Origin: [Mycobacterium] nativiensis
GTDB lineage: Bacteria; Actinomycetota; Actinomycetes; Mycobacteriales; Mycobacteriaceae
Direction of reading: 5' to 3'
Length of the DNA stretch: 62,248 bases
Assembly (NCBI RefSeq): GCF_020172685.1
Contig: NZ_CP083986.1
Span: forward strand, 1,767,537 to 1,829,784
Below the pieces are notes generated by a model that was not told where the DNA came from, did no database searches, and worked only from the letters and a program-made list of their open reading frames with translations. Shown piece after piece: positions 46,307-61,504 of the stretch. Made by a program: the position numbers and the translations under genes. Position 1 is the stretch's first letter. Every line of letters begins with the position of its first letter.

Positions 46307-48025
<1,719 letters not shown>

Positions 48026-52337: not shown

Positions 52338-53291
52338 CTAGGCGAAGAGTCCGCTCACCCAGTCGAAGTCGAACAGGTTGGCGCCGGCGAGCGCGTCACC
52401 CAGGTCCGGGTCGATCGGGACCTCGACATCGGGCACCGGCAGGTTCATGGTCAGCGCGTTGGCGATCATCTCGGGCAGGATCCGGAACATGTAGTCGATC
52501 GGGCCGTCCTCGGTCAGGAAGCCCACCAGCGGTGCGTGGACGGTGTCCGAGCCGTCCTGCGGGTCCCACGGCACGTATCCGTTGAGGAAGGCGTCCAACG
52601 GATTCTGCGCCACGTGGTCACCGGTGTCGGTGAACTGGTCGCTCAGCGCATACATGGCGCTGATCGACGGGCTCATCATCGCCTCGGCCATGCCCTTCCA
52701 CGTGCTGTAGTCGCCGAAGACGTCCTGGACATTGGCCCAGTCGCGCAGCATGGCGCTGCTCAGGCCGAAGATGCCGGCGACCTCTTCGGTCTCGCCGCGG
52801 GGGGTGTGGTCGAACAGCGGCTGGAAGACGTTCTGCATGTTGAACAGCATGTCTTTGTTGATCAGGTTGAACGCCTCGGTGGCGTTCCCGTCCTGCAGGT
52901 ACTGGTTGACCAACGGCAGGAGGGCCTCCAGGCCCAGGGCGGCGCCGTGCCCCGACCAGATCCCCTCGACACCCGCCATCGATGCCTCGAGGCTGTTCTT
53001 GGCGATGTCGCCGTAGTGGCCGAAGAGTTCGCCGACGGCCGTTCCGATCGGGTTCGGGCCCGACAGCAGGTCCATCAGGGCGTCCATGTTCTCCGAGGTC
53101 GTGGCGGTGAGCTGCACGTCGGACTGGTGTGCGTCCAGGGAGATGATCGGTGCGACCGGGTTGATGGCGATCACGCCTGCGGCGGCCACGGCGACCCCGG
53201 CGGCCAGCACCAGGTTGGTGCGGCTGGTCGGCACAAAGTCGGATACGGTGCCGCGATCGGGGGTCGATCCCGCGGCAAGGGCGAGCTGCAT
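52338..53291 (-). CDS. GjpA-like secreted or outer-membrane protein under IdeR control
   Basis: 317-residue exported protein. The N-terminus has a hydrophobic helix (NLVLAAGVAVAAAGVIAINP, about 26-45). It leads to the segment VQLTA typical of the mycobacterial proteins annotated as porin GjpA and relatives. The rest is acidic and helical with no known catalytic motif (GPNPIGTAVGELFGHYGDIA, FLNGYVPWDPQDGSD). AAGGAG sits five bases before the ATG. Two IdeR boxes lie upstream, shared with the divergent mbtL operon, so a role in iron or siderophore passage through the outer membrane is inferred. A strong terminator follows. Confidence 0.75.
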   Translation of the reverse strand: MQLALAAGSTPDRGTVSDFVPTSRTNLVLAAGVAVAAAGVIAINPVAPIISLDAHQSDVQLTATTSENMDALMDLLSGPNPIGTAVGELFGHYGDIAKNSLEASMAGVEGIWSGHGAALGLEALLPLVNQYLQDGNATEAFNLINKDMLFNMQNVFQPLFDHTPRGETEEVAGIFGLSSAMLRDWANVQDVFGDYSTWKGMAEAMMSPSISAMYALSDQFTDTGDHVAQNPLDAFLNGYVPWDPQDGSDTVHAPLVGFLTEDGPIDYMFRILPEMIANALTMNLPVPDVEVPIDPDLGDALAGANLFDFDWVSGLFA

Positions 53292-53373
53292 TGCTTCTCC
53301 TTATGGTGACCTCATCTGGCATGAGGTTGTTTTAATGTGGAACGCGGGCCAACCTTAACCAGACGCTTCTGCG

Positions 53374-53392
53374 CTAGGCAAGCCTTACCTAA
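53374..53392 (-). promoter_or_regulatory. IdeR iron box 1 (GjpA-like side)
   Basis: Minus strand TTAGGTAAGGCTTGCCTAG, 15 of 19 matches to the iron-box consensus, about 80 bases before the GjpA-like start. Confidence 0.75.
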
Positions 53393-53414
53393 CCGTGTGT
53401 CACGCATCACAAAG

Positions 53415-53433
53415 TAGGGTAAGGCTAACCTTA
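53415..53433 (+). promoter_or_regulatory. IdeR iron box 2 (mbtL side)
   Basis: TAGGGTAAGGCTAACCTTA, 15 of 19 matches, ending seven bases before the mbtL ATG. The centres of the two boxes are 41 bases apart, so IdeR dimers bound at both could repress in both directions. Confidence 0.8.
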
Positions 53434-53440
53434 CTTCGCG

Positions 53441-53722
53441 ATGTCGTGTAGCGTCCCTCCGGTGAGTTCGTCGCCATCTGATGCTGTCGGTAGTGCACTG
53501 CGCGAGATCCTGCGAGACGACCTGAATGTCGACCTCAGCCGGGTCACCCCGGAGTCGAGGTTGGTCGACGAAGTCGGCCTGGACTCGGTGGCATTCGCGA
53601 TCGGCATGGTTGCCATCGAGGACCGGCTCGGCGTGGCGCTGTCCGAGGAAGACCTGCTGAACTGCGACACGGTCGGTGACCTCGAGGCCGCGATCCGGGC
53701 GAAAGCCCCCGCCGACGCGTGA
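53441..53722 (+). CDS. mbtL: mycobactin acyl carrier protein MbtL
   Basis: 93-residue acyl carrier protein. The phosphopantetheine serine is Ser49 in GLDSVAF. It carries the lipid chain destined for the mycobactin lysine. The ATG lies just after the IdeR box and probably starts a leaderless mRNA; a GTG seven codons in is the alternative. It is followed by mbtM with GTGA overlap, as in Rv1344-Rv1345. Confidence 0.92.
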
Positions 53723-55296
53723 GCGTGCTGGCTGGGGCCCTGACCCGGGCGATGACCGCCTCGGACCAGGATCTGGTGATCTTCGACCAGGGCAGCGGCA
53801 CGTGGCAGCGACACCCCTGGGCGCAGGTGCACTCGCGCGCGCAGAGCGTGGCCGCCAGGGTGCTCGACACGGACCGATCCGGCGCGGTCGGCCTGGTCGG
53901 AGACCCGACCGTGGAGCTGGTCGCCGCCATTCAGGGGGCCTGGCTGGCCGGACGTCCGGTTTCGATCCTGCCCGGTCCGGTACGCGGCGCCGACCCGCAG
54001 CAGTGGGCGCGGGCGACGCTGAACCGGTTCGCCGGAATCGGAGTCGACACGGTTTTCAGCCACACTGCCTCGCTGCAGCTGCTCAGTGAGACCGACTCCG
54101 GTGTCGGGGTGCATGACGTCGCCGCCGTCGCCACCGAGCGTTCGGCTGCCTTCACGCCGGTGGCCGCCGCGCCGGATGCGCCGGCGGTGCTGCAGGGCAC
54201 GGCCGGATCGACCGGAACGCCGCGCACCGCGCAGCTGTCGCCGGCCGCGGTGCTGGCCAACATCAGCGGGCTGCTGGCGCACGTGGAACTGGACGTGTCC
54301 GAAGACGCCGGCTGCTCCTGGCTGCCGCTCTACCACGACATGGGCCTGACCTTCTTCCTCAGCGGCGCGCTGTCCGGGGTGCCGTTGTGGCTGGCGCCCA
54401 CCGCGGCGTTCGCCGCCTCGCCGTTCCGCTGGCTGACCTGGCTGCACGAGAGCGCCGCCACCCTGACCGCGGCCCCCAACTTCGCCTACAGCGTGCTCGG
54501 CAAGTACGCGCGCCGCATCCCCGACGTCGACCTGAGCCGGGTGCGGGTGGCGATCAACGGGGGAGAACCCGTCGACTGTGCCGCCCTGGAGCGCTTCGTC
54601 GCCGAGCTGGCCAAGTTCGGATTCGCCCCGGGTGCGGTCACGCCGTCCTACGGGCTGGCCGAGGCCACCTGCGCGGTGACCGCGCCACGTCCGGGCACCG
54701 GCCTGTTGTACGACGAAGTCACCGGCGCCGCAACCGATTCCCCGGTGCGTCGGCACGCGATCCTGGGTGTGCCGATCCCCGGCATGCAGGTGCGTGTCGC
54801 GCCGACGACCGGACACGGCGCCGACCAGCCCGGCCGCGATGTCGGCGAGATCGAGATCCGCGGCACCTCGATGATGTCGGGTTACATCGGCGAACCCGCG
54901 CATGACCCCGACACCTGGTTCGCCACCGGCGACCTGGGCTATCTCACCGACGACGGCCTGGTGGTCTGCGGCCGGGCCAAGGAGATCATCACGGTGGCCG
55001 GCCGCAACGTGTTCCCGACCGAGATCGAACGGGTGGCCGCCGAGATCCGCGGCGTGCGGGAGGGTGCGGTGGTCGCGGTCGGCACCGACGATGAGCGTCC
55101 CGCTCTGGTGGTCGTTGCCGAGTTCCGCGGCCGGGACGAGGCCGGCGCCCGCAGTGACCTGATCTCCCGGGTGGCGTCGGAATGCGGGGTGGTGCCCGCC
55201 AAGGTGGTGTTCCTGGCGCCCGGCTCGCTACCGCGGACGTCTTCGGGCAAGCTGCGGCGCATCGAGGTCAAACAGAACATGGAGGTGCTGAGTTGA
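53719..55296 (+). CDS. mbtM: long-chain fatty acyl-AMP ligase MbtM
   Basis: 525-residue adenylate-forming ligase (FadD33). It activates a fatty acid as acyl-AMP and loads it on MbtL. The P-loop-like core [27 protein letters not shown] and the hinge region [19 protein letters not shown] (in part) fit acyl-AMP ligases. GTG start overlaps mbtL. Confidence 0.93.
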
Positions 55297-56462
55297 CTTC
55301 GGACTCTGGGGGGCTCGACGCCTACCGGGCACTGCTCGACGAAGCCTTCGACCAGCAGGTCGCCGACTGGACCGTCGAAGCCGAAGCGACCGAACGCTTT
55401 CCGCGCGCCCTGATCGAACACCTGGGTCGCACCGGAGTGTTCGCGGGCAAGTGGGACAACGGTCAGCATCCCGACGTCGCCAAGCTGGTGGCGCTGGCCT
55501 CGAAGCTGGGACGGCTGCGCTCGGCCGGAATCGGAGTCGGCGTGAGCCTGCACGATTCGGCGATCGCGATCCTGCGCCGGTTCGGACGATCCGAGTACCT
55601 GCAGGGCATCTGCGAGCAGGCCATCGCTGGTGAGGCGGTGCTGTGCATCGGGGCGTCCGAGGAATCCGGTGGTTCGGATCTGCAGATCGTTGAGACCGAA
55701 GTCCGTTCCGCGCGCGAGGGATTCGAGATCCGCGGCCGAAAGAAGTTCGTCTCGCTGTCGCCGATCGCCGACCACATCATCGTGGTGGCCCGCGGCGTCG
55801 ACCATGACGCGAACAGCCGGCACGGCAACGTCCTGGTGATCGCAGTGCCGACCGCGCAGGTGAAGGTGTGTGAGCCCTACCGCAAGGTCGGCGCCGGGCC
55901 GCTTGACACCGCCGCGGTCGAGATCGACACCTGGGTGCCGGCCGACGCTCTGATCGCCCGCCCGGGCACCGGCCTGGCCGCCATCTCCTGGGGGTTGGCG
56001 CACGAACGCATGTCGATCGCCGGGCAGGTCGCGTCGTCGAGCCAGCTGGTGCTGGGGCTCACCCACGCCCGGATGATGCGCCGCCGCCAGTTCGGTGCCA
56101 CCCTGTTCGAACACCAGGCGTTGCGAATGCGGGTCGCCGACCTGCAGGCTCGGGTCGACCTGCTTCGCCACGCGCTCAACGGCATTGCCGCCGAAGGACG
56201 CCTGGACCTGCGCGCAGCCGCGGCGATCAAGGTCACCGCGGCCCGGCTGGGCGAAGAAGTGTTCTCCGAGTGCATGCACATCTTCGGCGGCTCCGGCTAC
56301 CTGGTGGATGAGACACCGATCGGGCGCTGGTGGCGCGACATGAAGCTGGCCCGGGTGGGCGGTGGCACCGACGAGGTGCTCTGGGAGCTGGTGGCCGCCG
56401 GGATGCGCCCCGACTACGACGGCTACGCCGAGTTGTTCGACAGCGGGTCGTCGTCGGGGTAG
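55293..56462 (+). CDS. mbtN: mycobactin acyl-ACP dehydrogenase MbtN
   Basis: 389-residue acyl-CoA-dehydrogenase fold protein (FadE14). It introduces the cis double bond into the acyl chain on MbtL. FAD and substrate segments: [41 protein letters not shown]. The TTG start overlaps the mbtM stop and has GGAGG a few bases ahead. Its 3' end overlaps the convergent mbtK by 40 bases. Confidence 0.92.
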
Positions 56463-57091: not shown

Positions 57092-57110
57092 TGAGGGTAG
57101 GGTAACCTAG
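57092..57110 (+). promoter_or_regulatory. IdeR iron box of irtA (and possibly mbtK)
   Basis: TGAGGGTAGGGTAACCTAG matches 15 of 19 consensus positions. It lies 70 bases before irtA and 40 bases before the divergent mbtK start, so both may be iron-repressed. Confidence 0.75.
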
Positions 57111-57179: not shown

Positions 57180-59768
57180 ATGGCGCGCGGCTTGCAGGGT
57201 GCGATTCTGCGGGGCTTCGGCGCCCGCGACCACATCGTGACGGTGCTCGAGACCAGTCGGATCGCCCCGCACTGCATCCGCATCTGGATGCATTCGCCGA
57301 CCCTGTTCACCGACGCGGCCGTCGAACCCAGTGCCTGGCTGCGCTTCTGGTTCCCCGACCCCGACGGCTCCAACACCGAGTATCAACGTGCCTACACCAT
57401 CGCCGAGGGGGATGCCGCGACCGGACGATTCGCGGTCGACATGGTGCTGCACGAACCGGCCGGGCCGGCCACCCGGTGGGCTGGCACCGTCGAACCCGGA
57501 GCAACCATCGCGGCCATGTCGCTGATGGGCTCGTCGCGATTCGAAACACCCGATGACGACGCACAGCCGGCCGGATATCTGCTGATGGGGGACTCGGCGT
57601 CGATCCCGGGGATCAACGGGATCATCGGAACCGTCGCACCCGACGTGCCGATCGAGCTGTACCTCGAACAGCACGACGACAACGACCCGTTGATCCCCCT
57701 GCGCGAGCATCCCCGGCTGCGGGTGCACTGGGTGCCCCGCCGGGACGCGAACTCGCTGGCCGCGGCGATCGAGGCCCGGGACTGGTCGGACTGGTACGCG
57801 TGGGCCACGCCGGAGGCCGCGACGCTCAAGGCGCTGCGCGTGCGGCTGCGTGACGAGTTCGGATTCCCCAAATCCGAGATCCACGCGCAGGCCTACTGGA
57901 ACGCCGGGCGTGCCATGGGTACCCAGCGCGAACCCGAGCCTTCGTCGTTGACTCTGCGTCCACCAGAGCAAAGTGCGAGTGAGGCGCCTGGTGAGCGCAG
58001 AGTCAACGCAAAGGGGGAGTGGCGGGCGCAGGCCGCCGGCCGGCTGCTCGGTCCACTCAAGGCGCCGCTGATCGTCTCCGGTGTCCTGCAGGGACTGATC
58101 ACGCTGCTGCAGCTGGCACCGTTCGTGCTGCTGGTGGAGTTGGCGCGACTGCTGGTCTCCGGCGCCGACCAGTCACGGCTGTGGACGGTGGGCATCGCCG
58201 CGGTCTCGCTGCTCGGGCTGGGCACGCTGCTGGGTGCGGGACTGACCCTGTGGCTGCATGTGGTCGACGCCCGCTTCGCCAGCGCGCTGCGGACCCGGCT
58301 GCTCACCAAGCTGTCTCGGCTGCCGCTGGGCTGGTTCACCGCCCGGGGCTCCGGGTCGATCAAGCAACTGGTCGCCGACGACACCCTGTCGCTGCACTAT
58401 CTGGTCACCCACGCCATCCCCGACGCCGTCGCCGCGGTCATCGCACCGGTGGCGGTGCTGGTCTACCTGTTCGTGGTGGATTGGCGGGTGGCTCTGGTGC
58501 TGTTCGTGCCGGTGCTGGTCTACATGGTGCTGATGTCGGTGATGATGACCCAGTCGGGCCCCAAGATCAGCCAGGCGCAGCGCTGGGCCGAGCGGATGAA
58601 CGGCGAGGCCGGCACCTACCTGGAGGGACAGCCGGTGATCCGGGTGTTCGGCGGGGCCGCCGCCTCCACGTTCCGCCGCCAGTTGGACGACTACATCAAT
58701 TTCCTCGTGGACTGGCAGCGGCCGTTCGTCGGCAAGAAGACGCTGATGGACCTGGTCACCCGGCCGTCGACGTTCCTGTGGCTGATCATGCTGGCCGGCA
58801 CCCCGCTGATCGTCGCGGGCCGGATGGACCCGGTGAACCTGCTGCCGTTCCTGTTGCTGGGCACCACCTTCGGCGCCCGCCTGTTGGGCATCGGGCTGGG
58901 TCTCGGCGGCATCCGCGGCGGCATGCTGGCGGCCCGGCGGCTGCAGATCGCCCTGGACGAGCCCGAACTCGGGGTGGCCGAGCAGGACGCCGCGAAGACC
59001 AAGGCCTCCGCGCAGGCCGGTACCGTGCGCTTCGAGGCGGTCGGCTTCGCCTACCGGCCCGGGGTGCCGGTGATCTCCGACGTGTCCCTGACCCTGCGAC
59101 CCGGCACGGTGACCGCGCTGGTCGGCCCGTCCGGCTCCGGCAAGTCGACGCTGGCAGCGCTGCTGGCGCGCTTCCATGACGTCGGCGAGGGCTCGATATC
59201 GATCGACGGGCACGACATCCGCACGCTGTCCGCCGACGAGCTGTATCGCCGGATCGGCTTCGTGCTGCAGGAAACCCAGTTGGTGCACGGGACGGTGCGC
59301 GAGAACATCGCGCTGGCCGTTCCGGACGCGACCGATGAGCAGGTGCGTGCCGCCGCCAGCGAGGCGCAGATTCACGAACGGATCCTGCGGCTGCCGCAGG
59401 GTTACGACACCGTGTTGGGTGCTGCCGCCGCCCTCTCCGGTGGTGAGCGGCAACGGCTCACCATCGCCCGCGCCATCCTCGCCGACACACCCGTGCTCAT
59501 CCTCGACGAGGCCACTGCCTTCGCCGACCCCGAGTCGGAATACCTGGTGCAGCAGGCATTGAACCGGCTGACCAAGGACCGCACCGTACTCGTCATCGCA
59601 CACCGGTTGCACACCATCACCGGTGCCGACCAGATCGTGGTGCTCGACCACGGCGGCATCGTCGAACAGGGCCGCCACGATGAGCTGCTCGCCGCCGGAG
59701 GCCGCTATCTGCAGCTGTGGGAGACCGGCCGTCAGGCGGTCACCGCGGGAGCGGAGGCGTCGCGATGA
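57180..59768 (+). CDS. irtA: mycobactin import ABC transporter IrtA with siderophore-reductase domain
   Basis: 862-residue fusion. An N-terminal siderophore-interacting FAD domain (about 10-250: [36 protein letters not shown]) reduces ferric mycobactin at the inner face. A linker, six membrane helices (about 290-570) and an ATPase follow, with Walker [10 protein letters not shown] at 649-657 and signature LSGGE from 752. It works as a heterodimer with IrtB. The linker residues at about 256-276 are encoded by a 63-base palindromic element. AAAGGA precedes the ATG. Confidence 0.95.
57946..58008. repeat. palindromic element inside irtA
   Basis: 63 bases. Outer arms CGTTGACTCTGCG and complement (13 bp) and inner arms CACCAG/CTGGTG (6 bp) are separated by a 2-by-2 mismatch. 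The length is a multiple of three and it lies in the interdomain linker. Its TCTGCGTCCA core is shared with the hairpin after degV, suggesting a dispersed element. Confidence 0.65.
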
Positions 59769-61504
59769 TCCGCACCCTGATCCAGCTGATCCCGCAGGAC
59801 CGCCGCGGCCGGATGTTCGGCTACGCCGTGCTGACGTTGCTGTCGGTGGCGGTACGCGCCGCAGGCACCGTGCTGCTGGTTCCACTGGTGGCCGCGCTGT
59901 TCTCCGACAACCCACGCCACGCGCTGGTCTGGCTGGGCTGGCTGACCGTCGCGACCGTGGCCGGCTGGCTGATCGACTTCACATGCGCGCGAATCGGATT
60001 CGACCTCGGGTTCGCCGTGCTCGACCACACCCAGCACGACGTCGCCGACCGGCTGCCCGGAATCCGATTGGACTGGTTCACCCCCGACAACACCGCCACC
60101 GCGCGGCAGGCGATCGCCGCCACCGGCCCCGAACTCGTCAGCCTGGTGGTCAACCTGCTGACCCCGCTGATCAGCGCCGTCCTGCTGCCGCCGGCCATCG
60201 GGCTGGCGCTGCTCGGGGTGTCCTGGCAGCTGGGGCTGGCCGCCCTGGGTGGGGTGCCGCTGCTGCTGGGTGCGCTGTGGGCGGCCAACCGGCTCAGCGC
60301 CCGGGCCGACGCCGCCGCCGGTGACGCGAACACCGCGCTGACCGAGCGCATCATCGAATTCGCCCGCACCCAGCAGGCGCTGCGCGCGGCCCGCCGTGTC
60401 GAACCCGAACGCAGCACGGTCGGCGCCGCGTTGAGCGCCCAGCACGGCGCGGCGATGCGGTTGCTGCTCATGCAGATTCCCGGTCAGCTGCTGTTCAGCC
60501 TGGCCAGTCAGGGCGCGCTGATCCTGCTCGCCGGCGCCACCGCCGCGCTGACCGTGACCGGCACCTTGAGCGTGCCGGAGGCCATCGCGCTGATCGTGGT
60601 GATGGCGCGCTACCTGGAGCCGTTCACCGCCATCAGCGAACTGGCGCCGGCCCTGGAATCGACCCGGGCCAGCCTGGAGCGGATCCAGGCGGTGCTCACC
60701 GCCCCGACGCTGACCGTGGGAACCGGCGGGCTGCGGGATGCCGGAGCGGCGCCCCGGATCGAATTCGACGACGTCACCTTCGGCTACGGCGCAGCCGGCG
60801 CCCCGGTACTGGACCGGGTCAGTTTCGCCCTGGAGCCGGGCACCACCACCGCCGTCGTCGGGCCGTCCGGGTCGGGCAAGAGCACCATCCTGGGCCTGAT
60901 CGCCGGCCTGCACGAACCCACCGGCGGCCGGGTCCTGTTCGACGGGGTCGACGCCGCCGAACTGGACGAATCGGCGCGGCGCGCGGCGAGCAGCGTGGTG
61001 TTCCAGCACCCCTACCTGCTGGACGGCACGATCCGCGACAACGTTCTGGTCGGAGATCCCGACGCCGACCAGGACGGTTTCGTGCGGGCCACCGAACTCG
61101 CCCGGGTCGACGAGCTGACCGGACGGCTGCCCGACGGCGCGGACTCGAAGGTCGGGGAGGCCGGTGGCGCACTGTCCGGTGGTGAGCGCCAACGGGTCAG
61201 CATCGCCCGTGCTCTGCTCAAACCGGCACCGGTGCTGCTGGTCGATGAGGCGACCAGCGCCCTGGACACCGAGAACGAGGCGGCGGTGGTCGACGCGCTG
61301 ACCGCCGAGCTGCGGCCGCGCACCCGAATCATCGTCGCGCACCGGCTGGCCAGCATCGCCCAAGCCGACCGGGTGCTGTTCATCGATAACGGCCAAATCG
61401 TCGAGGCCGGCACCATCGACGAATTACGCGCCGCCGGTGGTCGTTTCGACGAGTTCTGGCGGCAGCAGCACGATGCCGCCGGTTGGCGGATCAAGACGGG
61501 CTAG
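59765..61504 (+). CDS. irtB: mycobactin import ABC transporter IrtB
   Basis: 579-residue half-transporter, the same length as M. tuberculosis IrtB. Six membrane helices are followed by an ATPase with Walker [10 protein letters not shown] (366-374), signature [16 protein letters not shown], and Walker [17 protein letters not shown] overlap with irtA ensures balanced synthesis of the heterodimer. Confidence 0.96.

Follow-up and report, generated by a model that had tools for sequence, protein, structure and literature searches.

An undescribed family of proteins, encoded behind iron boxes and carrying an export-type N-terminus, appears to be tied to mycobactin, and comparison of genomes across the genus of its founding member supports this well. 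The founder is a predicted exported protein of 317 residues, coded divergently from mbtL in a 62,248-nucleotide window (C1:1767537-1829784, the whole stretch of DNA that was analysed) of a single-contig genome of 5.28 Mb. We propose that this protein acts on the siderophore route under an IdeR-controlled divergent promoter pair, a proposal to which we give an even chance.

The divergent iron-box region

The features of the locus are as follows, with positions counted from the first letter of the window:

46307 to 46325, unstranded: iron box, 15/19, upstream of mbtI (consensus scoring)
46332 to 47678, plus strand: mbtI, salicylate synthase (TIGR03494, 588.9 bits against a cut-off of 325.15)
52338 to 53291, minus strand: gene for the predicted exported protein, 317 aa, family founder (open reading frame list and translation; earlier called "GjpA-like")
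53297 to 53302, minus strand: ribosome-binding site AAGGAG of the exported-protein gene, conserved in the alignment
53309 to 53327, unstranded: inverted repeat ACCTCA-N7-TGAGGT of the exported-protein gene's 5' leader, just upstream of the ribosome-binding site
53352 to 53357, minus strand: putative -10 TAAGGT of the exported-protein gene (10 of 11 aligned rows read TAAGGT or TAACGT)
53374 to 53392, unstranded: box A, an IdeR site of 17/19 (degenerate consensus), attributed to the exported-protein gene (in the loci compared, a second box is seen only where the gene is)
53376 to 53381, minus strand: putative -35 TTGCCT of the exported-protein gene, 18 bases from the -10 and overlapped by box A
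53415 to 53433, unstranded: box B, an IdeR site of 18/19 (degenerate consensus), attributed to mbtL (genome scan and alignment)
53426 to 53431, plus strand: putative -10 TAACCT of mbtL, within box B (letters and alignment)
53462 to 53722, plus strand: mbtL, acyl carrier protein (NF004533, 144.8 bits against 72; open reading frame listed from 53441)
53719 to 55296, plus strand: mbtM, fatty acid--ACP ligase (NF004510, 858.7 bits against 621)
55182 to 56462, plus strand: open reading frame containing mbtN, acyl-ACP dehydrogenase (NF037942, 758.7 bits against 700; match from residue 45)
57092 to 57110, unstranded: iron box, 15/19, upstream of irtA (consensus scoring)
57180 to 59768, plus strand: irtA-like ABC transporter with a siderophore-interacting domain (Pfam SIP, FAD_binding_9 and ABC domains)
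59717 to 61504, plus strand: irtB-like ABC transporter (Pfam ABC_tran)

The gene content agrees with an earlier note on this DNA, which had placed the boxes between a secreted GjpA-like gene and mbtL: on one side of the gap is an open reading frame of 317 residues with an N-terminal hydrophobic segment, and on the other are mbtL, mbtM and mbtN with irtA- and irtB-like genes after them. We take the two transporter genes to be irtA and irtB from gene layout. The mbtL reading frame opens at ATG 53441, and because the alignment with most relatives begins at residue 8, the start is probably the GTG at 53462. Approximately 4.5 kb past irtB, outside the window, is a DHB-AMP-ligase-like gene that scores below the TIGR02275 cut-off and would be mbtA by layout; beside it is a divergent synthetase with two carrier domains, one condensation domain and one adenylation domain, presumably mbtB, again by layout. 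A second family gene (C1:1838687-1839746; L011:12688-13747) lies behind this mbtB-like synthetase, with boxes of 16/19 and 15/19 and a cutinase gene after it. The 317-residue protein itself matched no Pfam family and contains no cysteine; its N-terminal hydrophobic stretch, judged by eye to span residues ~24 to 45, is aligned across a 33-row alignment of the family.

Boxes A and B start 41 bases from one another. On the two strands, strict matches to TTAGGTTAGGCTAACCTAA number 14 and 15 of 19 for box A and 15 and 14 of 19 for box B, in agreement with the spacing and scores of the two 15/19 boxes earlier noted between these genes. Scored against the degenerate IdeR consensus TWAGGTWAGSCTWACCTWA, as printed in PMC9505556, box A matches at 17/19 and box B at 18/19. 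A scan of the 5.28-Mb genome allowing up to three mismatches returned five sites, with box B at one mismatch, box A and one other at two, and two at three, so that boxes A and B are the top IdeR sites of the genome, box A being tied with one other. The reversed pattern yields three sites per strand within three mismatches genome-wide, and sites with three mismatches therefore mean little on their own, being near background. When the intergenic region was shuffled by swaps, a score of 17 was reached in none of 1,000 shuffles and a score of 15 in 11 of 1,000; two such high-scoring sites within one gap are not due to chance. We note that a 17/19 box at C1:5030448-5030466 (L013:2949-2967) lies ahead of a gene for a DUF2470 protein, and a 16/19 box at C1:696052-696070 (L012:3053-3071) ahead of an open reading frame with a sub-threshold DUF7159 match.

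The promoter elements were read from the letters and from an 11-sequence alignment of the divergent region, and the layout suggests that the gap would act as a divergent IdeR-controlled promoter pair, the predicted -35 of the exported-protein gene being overlapped by box A and the predicted -10 of mbtL by box B. With both promoters so overlapped, iron-loaded IdeR should shut both in iron plenty and open both in scarcity, and the exported protein would most likely be made under iron starvation and then exported. The leader of the exported-protein gene carries a further element, the inverted repeat, whose copy at 53309 to 53327 is the sole exact occurrence of ACCTCA-N7-TGAGGT in the genome; nine of 12 orthologue leaders have it unaltered, among them that of a relocated gene (in genome G180, below), and folding of the leader gives a hairpin z score of -2.1. 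This repeat is possibly a second operator or an RNA element.

The iron-boxed family and its mycobactin neighbourhood

A protein search of 198 same-genus genomes, in 94 of which mbtM is present (E<=1e-150), returned 11 near-full-length orthologues, one from the genome under study and ten from others at 52 to 57% identity. Ten of these 11, the window's own included, are divergent from mbtL, and so is the orthologue of Mycolicibacter sp. MYC098, the single relative obtained from a scan of named genomes. Conservation of the place beside mbtL, which had been put forward as a check on the locus, is thereby borne out. All 11 divergent loci (ten sampled genomes and MYC098) contain two boxes of 15 to 18/19, 39 to 42 bases apart.

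The family extends well beyond these orthologues. Eighteen weak protein matches, one per genome and picked by similarity alone, fit the family profile at E values of 6e-18 to 5e-42, and 17 of the 18 (the exception is L028) are preceded by a box scoring 15/19 or more. The profile built from the 33-row alignment finds the family in 130 of the 198 same-genus genomes (E<=1e-15). When 249 genomes of 68 genera were drawn from the whole order, matches came only from the genus of the window (23 genomes). Members share an architecture of an N-terminal export-type segment and a domain of approximately 300 residues, to which many relatives add a long acidic or Gly/Ser tail. A search of plasmids returned no named relative. 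A literature search, at the level of titles and the openings of abstracts, found no entry naming the family, and on the protein itself nothing beyond a genome note.

Box counts were made on family matches down to E 7.1e-57, weaker matches standing outside them; there are 112 such matches, of which 94 and 17 were scored and one, a fragment beginning at profile position 92, was left out. Among the 94 ranked matches, boxes of at least 15/19 precede 43 of 46 at E<=1e-90, 29 of 30 between 1e-90 and 1e-70, and 6 of 18 that are weaker; a reversed-consensus control upstream of the same 94 genes gave none. The 17 matches from the eleven orthologue-bearing genomes were scored apart and 16 are boxed, L085 missing at 14/19. 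At E<=1e-70 the total is 88 of 93 (72/76 and 16/17), and a boxed member is present in 70 of the 77 genomes in which any member was scored; because of the relatedness among genomes, these figures are not to be read as counts of events. Among the weaker matches without a box, many begin at profile position 25 to 27 and resemble another paralogue type. Four close members lack a box (10 to 13/19): G177:C1:2724742, G096:C1:5772767, G096:C1:3817627 and G140:C1:471251. The unboxed G177 gene adjoins an NRPS-like gene. Tandem boxes, often 25 bases apart, are found ahead of many single family genes. A third family group (L084 to L091) is present in eight of the eleven orthologue-bearing genomes, with a box of at least 15/19 in seven of the eight. 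By eye, these genes lie near a bcp-like peroxiredoxin gene, and in L088, the locus examined for it, an L,D-transpeptidase gene is also near.

Neighbourhood counts, which cover part of the 198 genomes, place a family gene directly against a mycobactin or irt gene in no fewer than 20 of the 198, and the arrangements number at least four. Ten genomes have the gene divergent from mbtL; it lies behind irtB in G180, where the relocated orthologue has kept its own 17/19 box, the -35, 18-base spacer and -10, the inverted repeat and the ribosome-binding site; between divergent mbtL and mbtI in G183; ahead of mbtI in six more genomes (G093, G024, G004, G053, G150 and G136); and between mbtB and mbtA in G188 and G030. 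G000 and G022, already counted, have an additional family gene behind mbtB. In all seven mbtI cases the boxes precede the family gene and none stands before mbtI itself (best 9 to 11/19). Start candidates for mbtI lie 4 to 75 bases past the family gene in L292, L293, L294 and L297 and 104 to 113 bases past it in G183; in L295 and L296 the nearest start, 70 to 71 bases past, is the only firm one. The family gene and mbtI thus form an apparent operon in seven genomes.

A tree of 34 family members, built without the six mbtI-linked members and the mbtA/mbtB-linked member of G030, places the mbtL-linked clade (100/100) apart from the member of G183, whose partner is G135 (98/93), and unites the mbtB-linked members of G000, G022 and G188 in a third clade (100/99). 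Because the mbtL-linked clade and G183 stand apart, linkage to mbtL was either gained or retained in two separate lineages. The earlier suggestion that the gene goes with the siderophore system is sustained by its synteny with mbtL (10/11), the box kept after relocation, the 88 of 93 boxed members and the mbt links in at least 20 of 198 genomes.

It is plausible, however, that an exported protein under IdeR control serves some other iron source or surface task, such as haem or ferric-ion capture, adhesion or host contact, and we regard this as the most serious alternative, if still a fairly unlikely one. IdeR governs genes beyond siderophore synthesis as well, and 17 of the 20 family loci in one sampled set have no mbt gene immediately beside the family gene; members G078:C102 and G180:C58 have no mbt gene within their 14-kb stretches. 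In genomes with mbtM, 16 of 42 top family matches lie within 50 kb of it, and many of these look like one clade. MbtM has no match at E<=1e-150 in eleven genomes that carry a boxed member, but MbtB (>=60% identity) is present in ten of the 11, the miss being G134. The several placements inside mbt clusters, the apparent operon with mbtI and the presence of two separate clades beside mbtL likewise argue against a task unconnected with the siderophore and for one on its route.

Relation to GjpA porins and to known siderophore systems

The exported protein had been called GjpA-like or porin-like, a tempting label that the present analysis corrects. Against the GjpA model NF033942 it aligns over residues 31 to 74 only, with 26.5 bits against a cut-off of 100, and the relatives of G183 and G039 score 26.9 and 34.9 bits. 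Genuine GjpA-family genes number 12 in this genome, five lying in one 15-kb stretch (C1:4003472-4018750), and hhalign comparison with these genuine members is confined to N-terminal columns, 36 with the 12 orthologues and 72 with a 21-member set; with the protein's own paralogues, beside mbtB and elsewhere, 276 columns align (E 1.2e-33). What is in common with GjpA is therefore the N-terminal export segment and the residues that follow it (36 to 72 profile columns), past which the window protein has no detectable relation to it. On the N-terminal-only profile alignment and the score below the curated cut-off, membership of the GjpA porins was rejected for the window protein.

A weaker form of the same idea is that the protein is a distant GjpA relative acting as an iron-regulated general porin, which would raise mycomembrane permeability in iron starvation. 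A profile from the 12 genuine GjpA proteins gives a weak alignment of approximately 220 positions to three members of the wider family (L027, L028 and L033; E 3e-13 to 4e-11) and finds a second weak stretch in several others, so that a remote common origin of the wider family and GjpA is possible, and the N-terminus is shared with NF033942. Against this, the orthologues and the 21-member set align through those N-terminal columns only and the score is far under the curated cut-off. Upstream of 15 further GjpA-type genes in this genome, a set that takes in all 12 genuine ones, the best scores are 10 to 13/19, with no iron box. We consider a porin role improbable.

Structural comparison did not favour either a channel or a siderophore site: a search of PDB sequences with the 33-row profile returned four chance-level matches (best E 0.024) and no relative, and an AF2 model from two sequences, with a mean pLDDT of 31.8, was not usable.

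The siderophore reading has closer parallels among known systems. The gap resembles IdeR-controlled mbt promoters in having the same 19-base boxes over promoter elements in a divergent pair, and differs in that one product belongs to a predicted exported family with no Pfam match. In M. tuberculosis we take lprD (Rv1343c) to be divergent from mbtL, as the exported-protein gene is here; its product is presumably a lipoprotein, from which the window protein differs in having no cysteine. Our literature search found no paper naming lprD together with IdeR. Rv0455c (DUF5078), a 14-kDa protein, is described in PMC9042941 as periplasmic and required for siderophore secretion, and the likeness is that of an exported-protein gene tied by its neighbourhood (mmpS4/L4 or mmpS5/L5) to the siderophore system. 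It stands beside inner-membrane exporters, whereas the 317-residue protein is coded beside mbtL, and the two are set apart here by description.

On the siderophore reading, the protein would act in the periplasm or outer envelope, alongside MbtL-N and IrtAB, and its task would be the trafficking or capture of mycobactin or carboxymycobactin. PMC9042941 and PMC7058343 state that the crossing of the outer membrane by mycobactin is unknown or unclear, and because they do so, the family is a testable candidate for that step. Passage of mycobactin through the outer membrane by the family is an inference. Bolder still, the family may be a missing genus-specific envelope component, co-regulated by IdeR and in one genome group apparently co-transcribed with mbtI, that moves mycobactin or carboxymycobactin through the periplasm and mycomembrane in export, recycling or ferric-siderophore uptake; this we put forward tentatively, as rather unlikely to hold in full. 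Should a transport role fail, the family would be an unrecognised addition to the mycobacterial iron regulon.

The regulator and the assignment of each box

The genome codes for two DtxR-family proteins (PF02742, Fe_dep_repr_C, above cut-off), either of which could be IdeR. The boxes might accordingly be read by the second of these, for example a regulator of MntR or SirR type, in response to another metal. The sites fit the IdeR consensus, however, and boxes are also present at mbtI, mbtL and irtA, which are IdeR targets; control by another regulator is thus very unlikely, and we infer binding by IdeR and a response to iron.

The assignment of box A follows from comparison of mbtL loci with and without the exported-protein gene. 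No second separate box (>=14/19) is present in any of 61 mbtL-like loci that lack the gene (0/20 and 0/41), the second set coming from 60 fetched stretches of which 18 without mbtL were set aside and 42 kept, some of the retained mbtL-like genes being just 41 to 54% identical. The further mbtL-like locus that has a family gene, that of G183, does contain the second box, and in G180 mbtL, now without a divergent neighbour, has one box. Since the second box is absent from the 61 gene-less loci and kept in the relocated G180 copy, box A travels with the exported-protein gene. That both boxes form a tandem operator for mbtL alone, with the exported-protein gene a bystander, was rejected as scarcely tenable, because although tandem boxes also stand ahead of single genes, many family genes among them, neighbour-less mbtL-like loci have no second box, the relocated gene has its own, and the wider family is boxed wherever it is located. 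The pairing with mbtL is found in one clade, Mycolicibacter as judged by MYC098, and in the separate genome G183.
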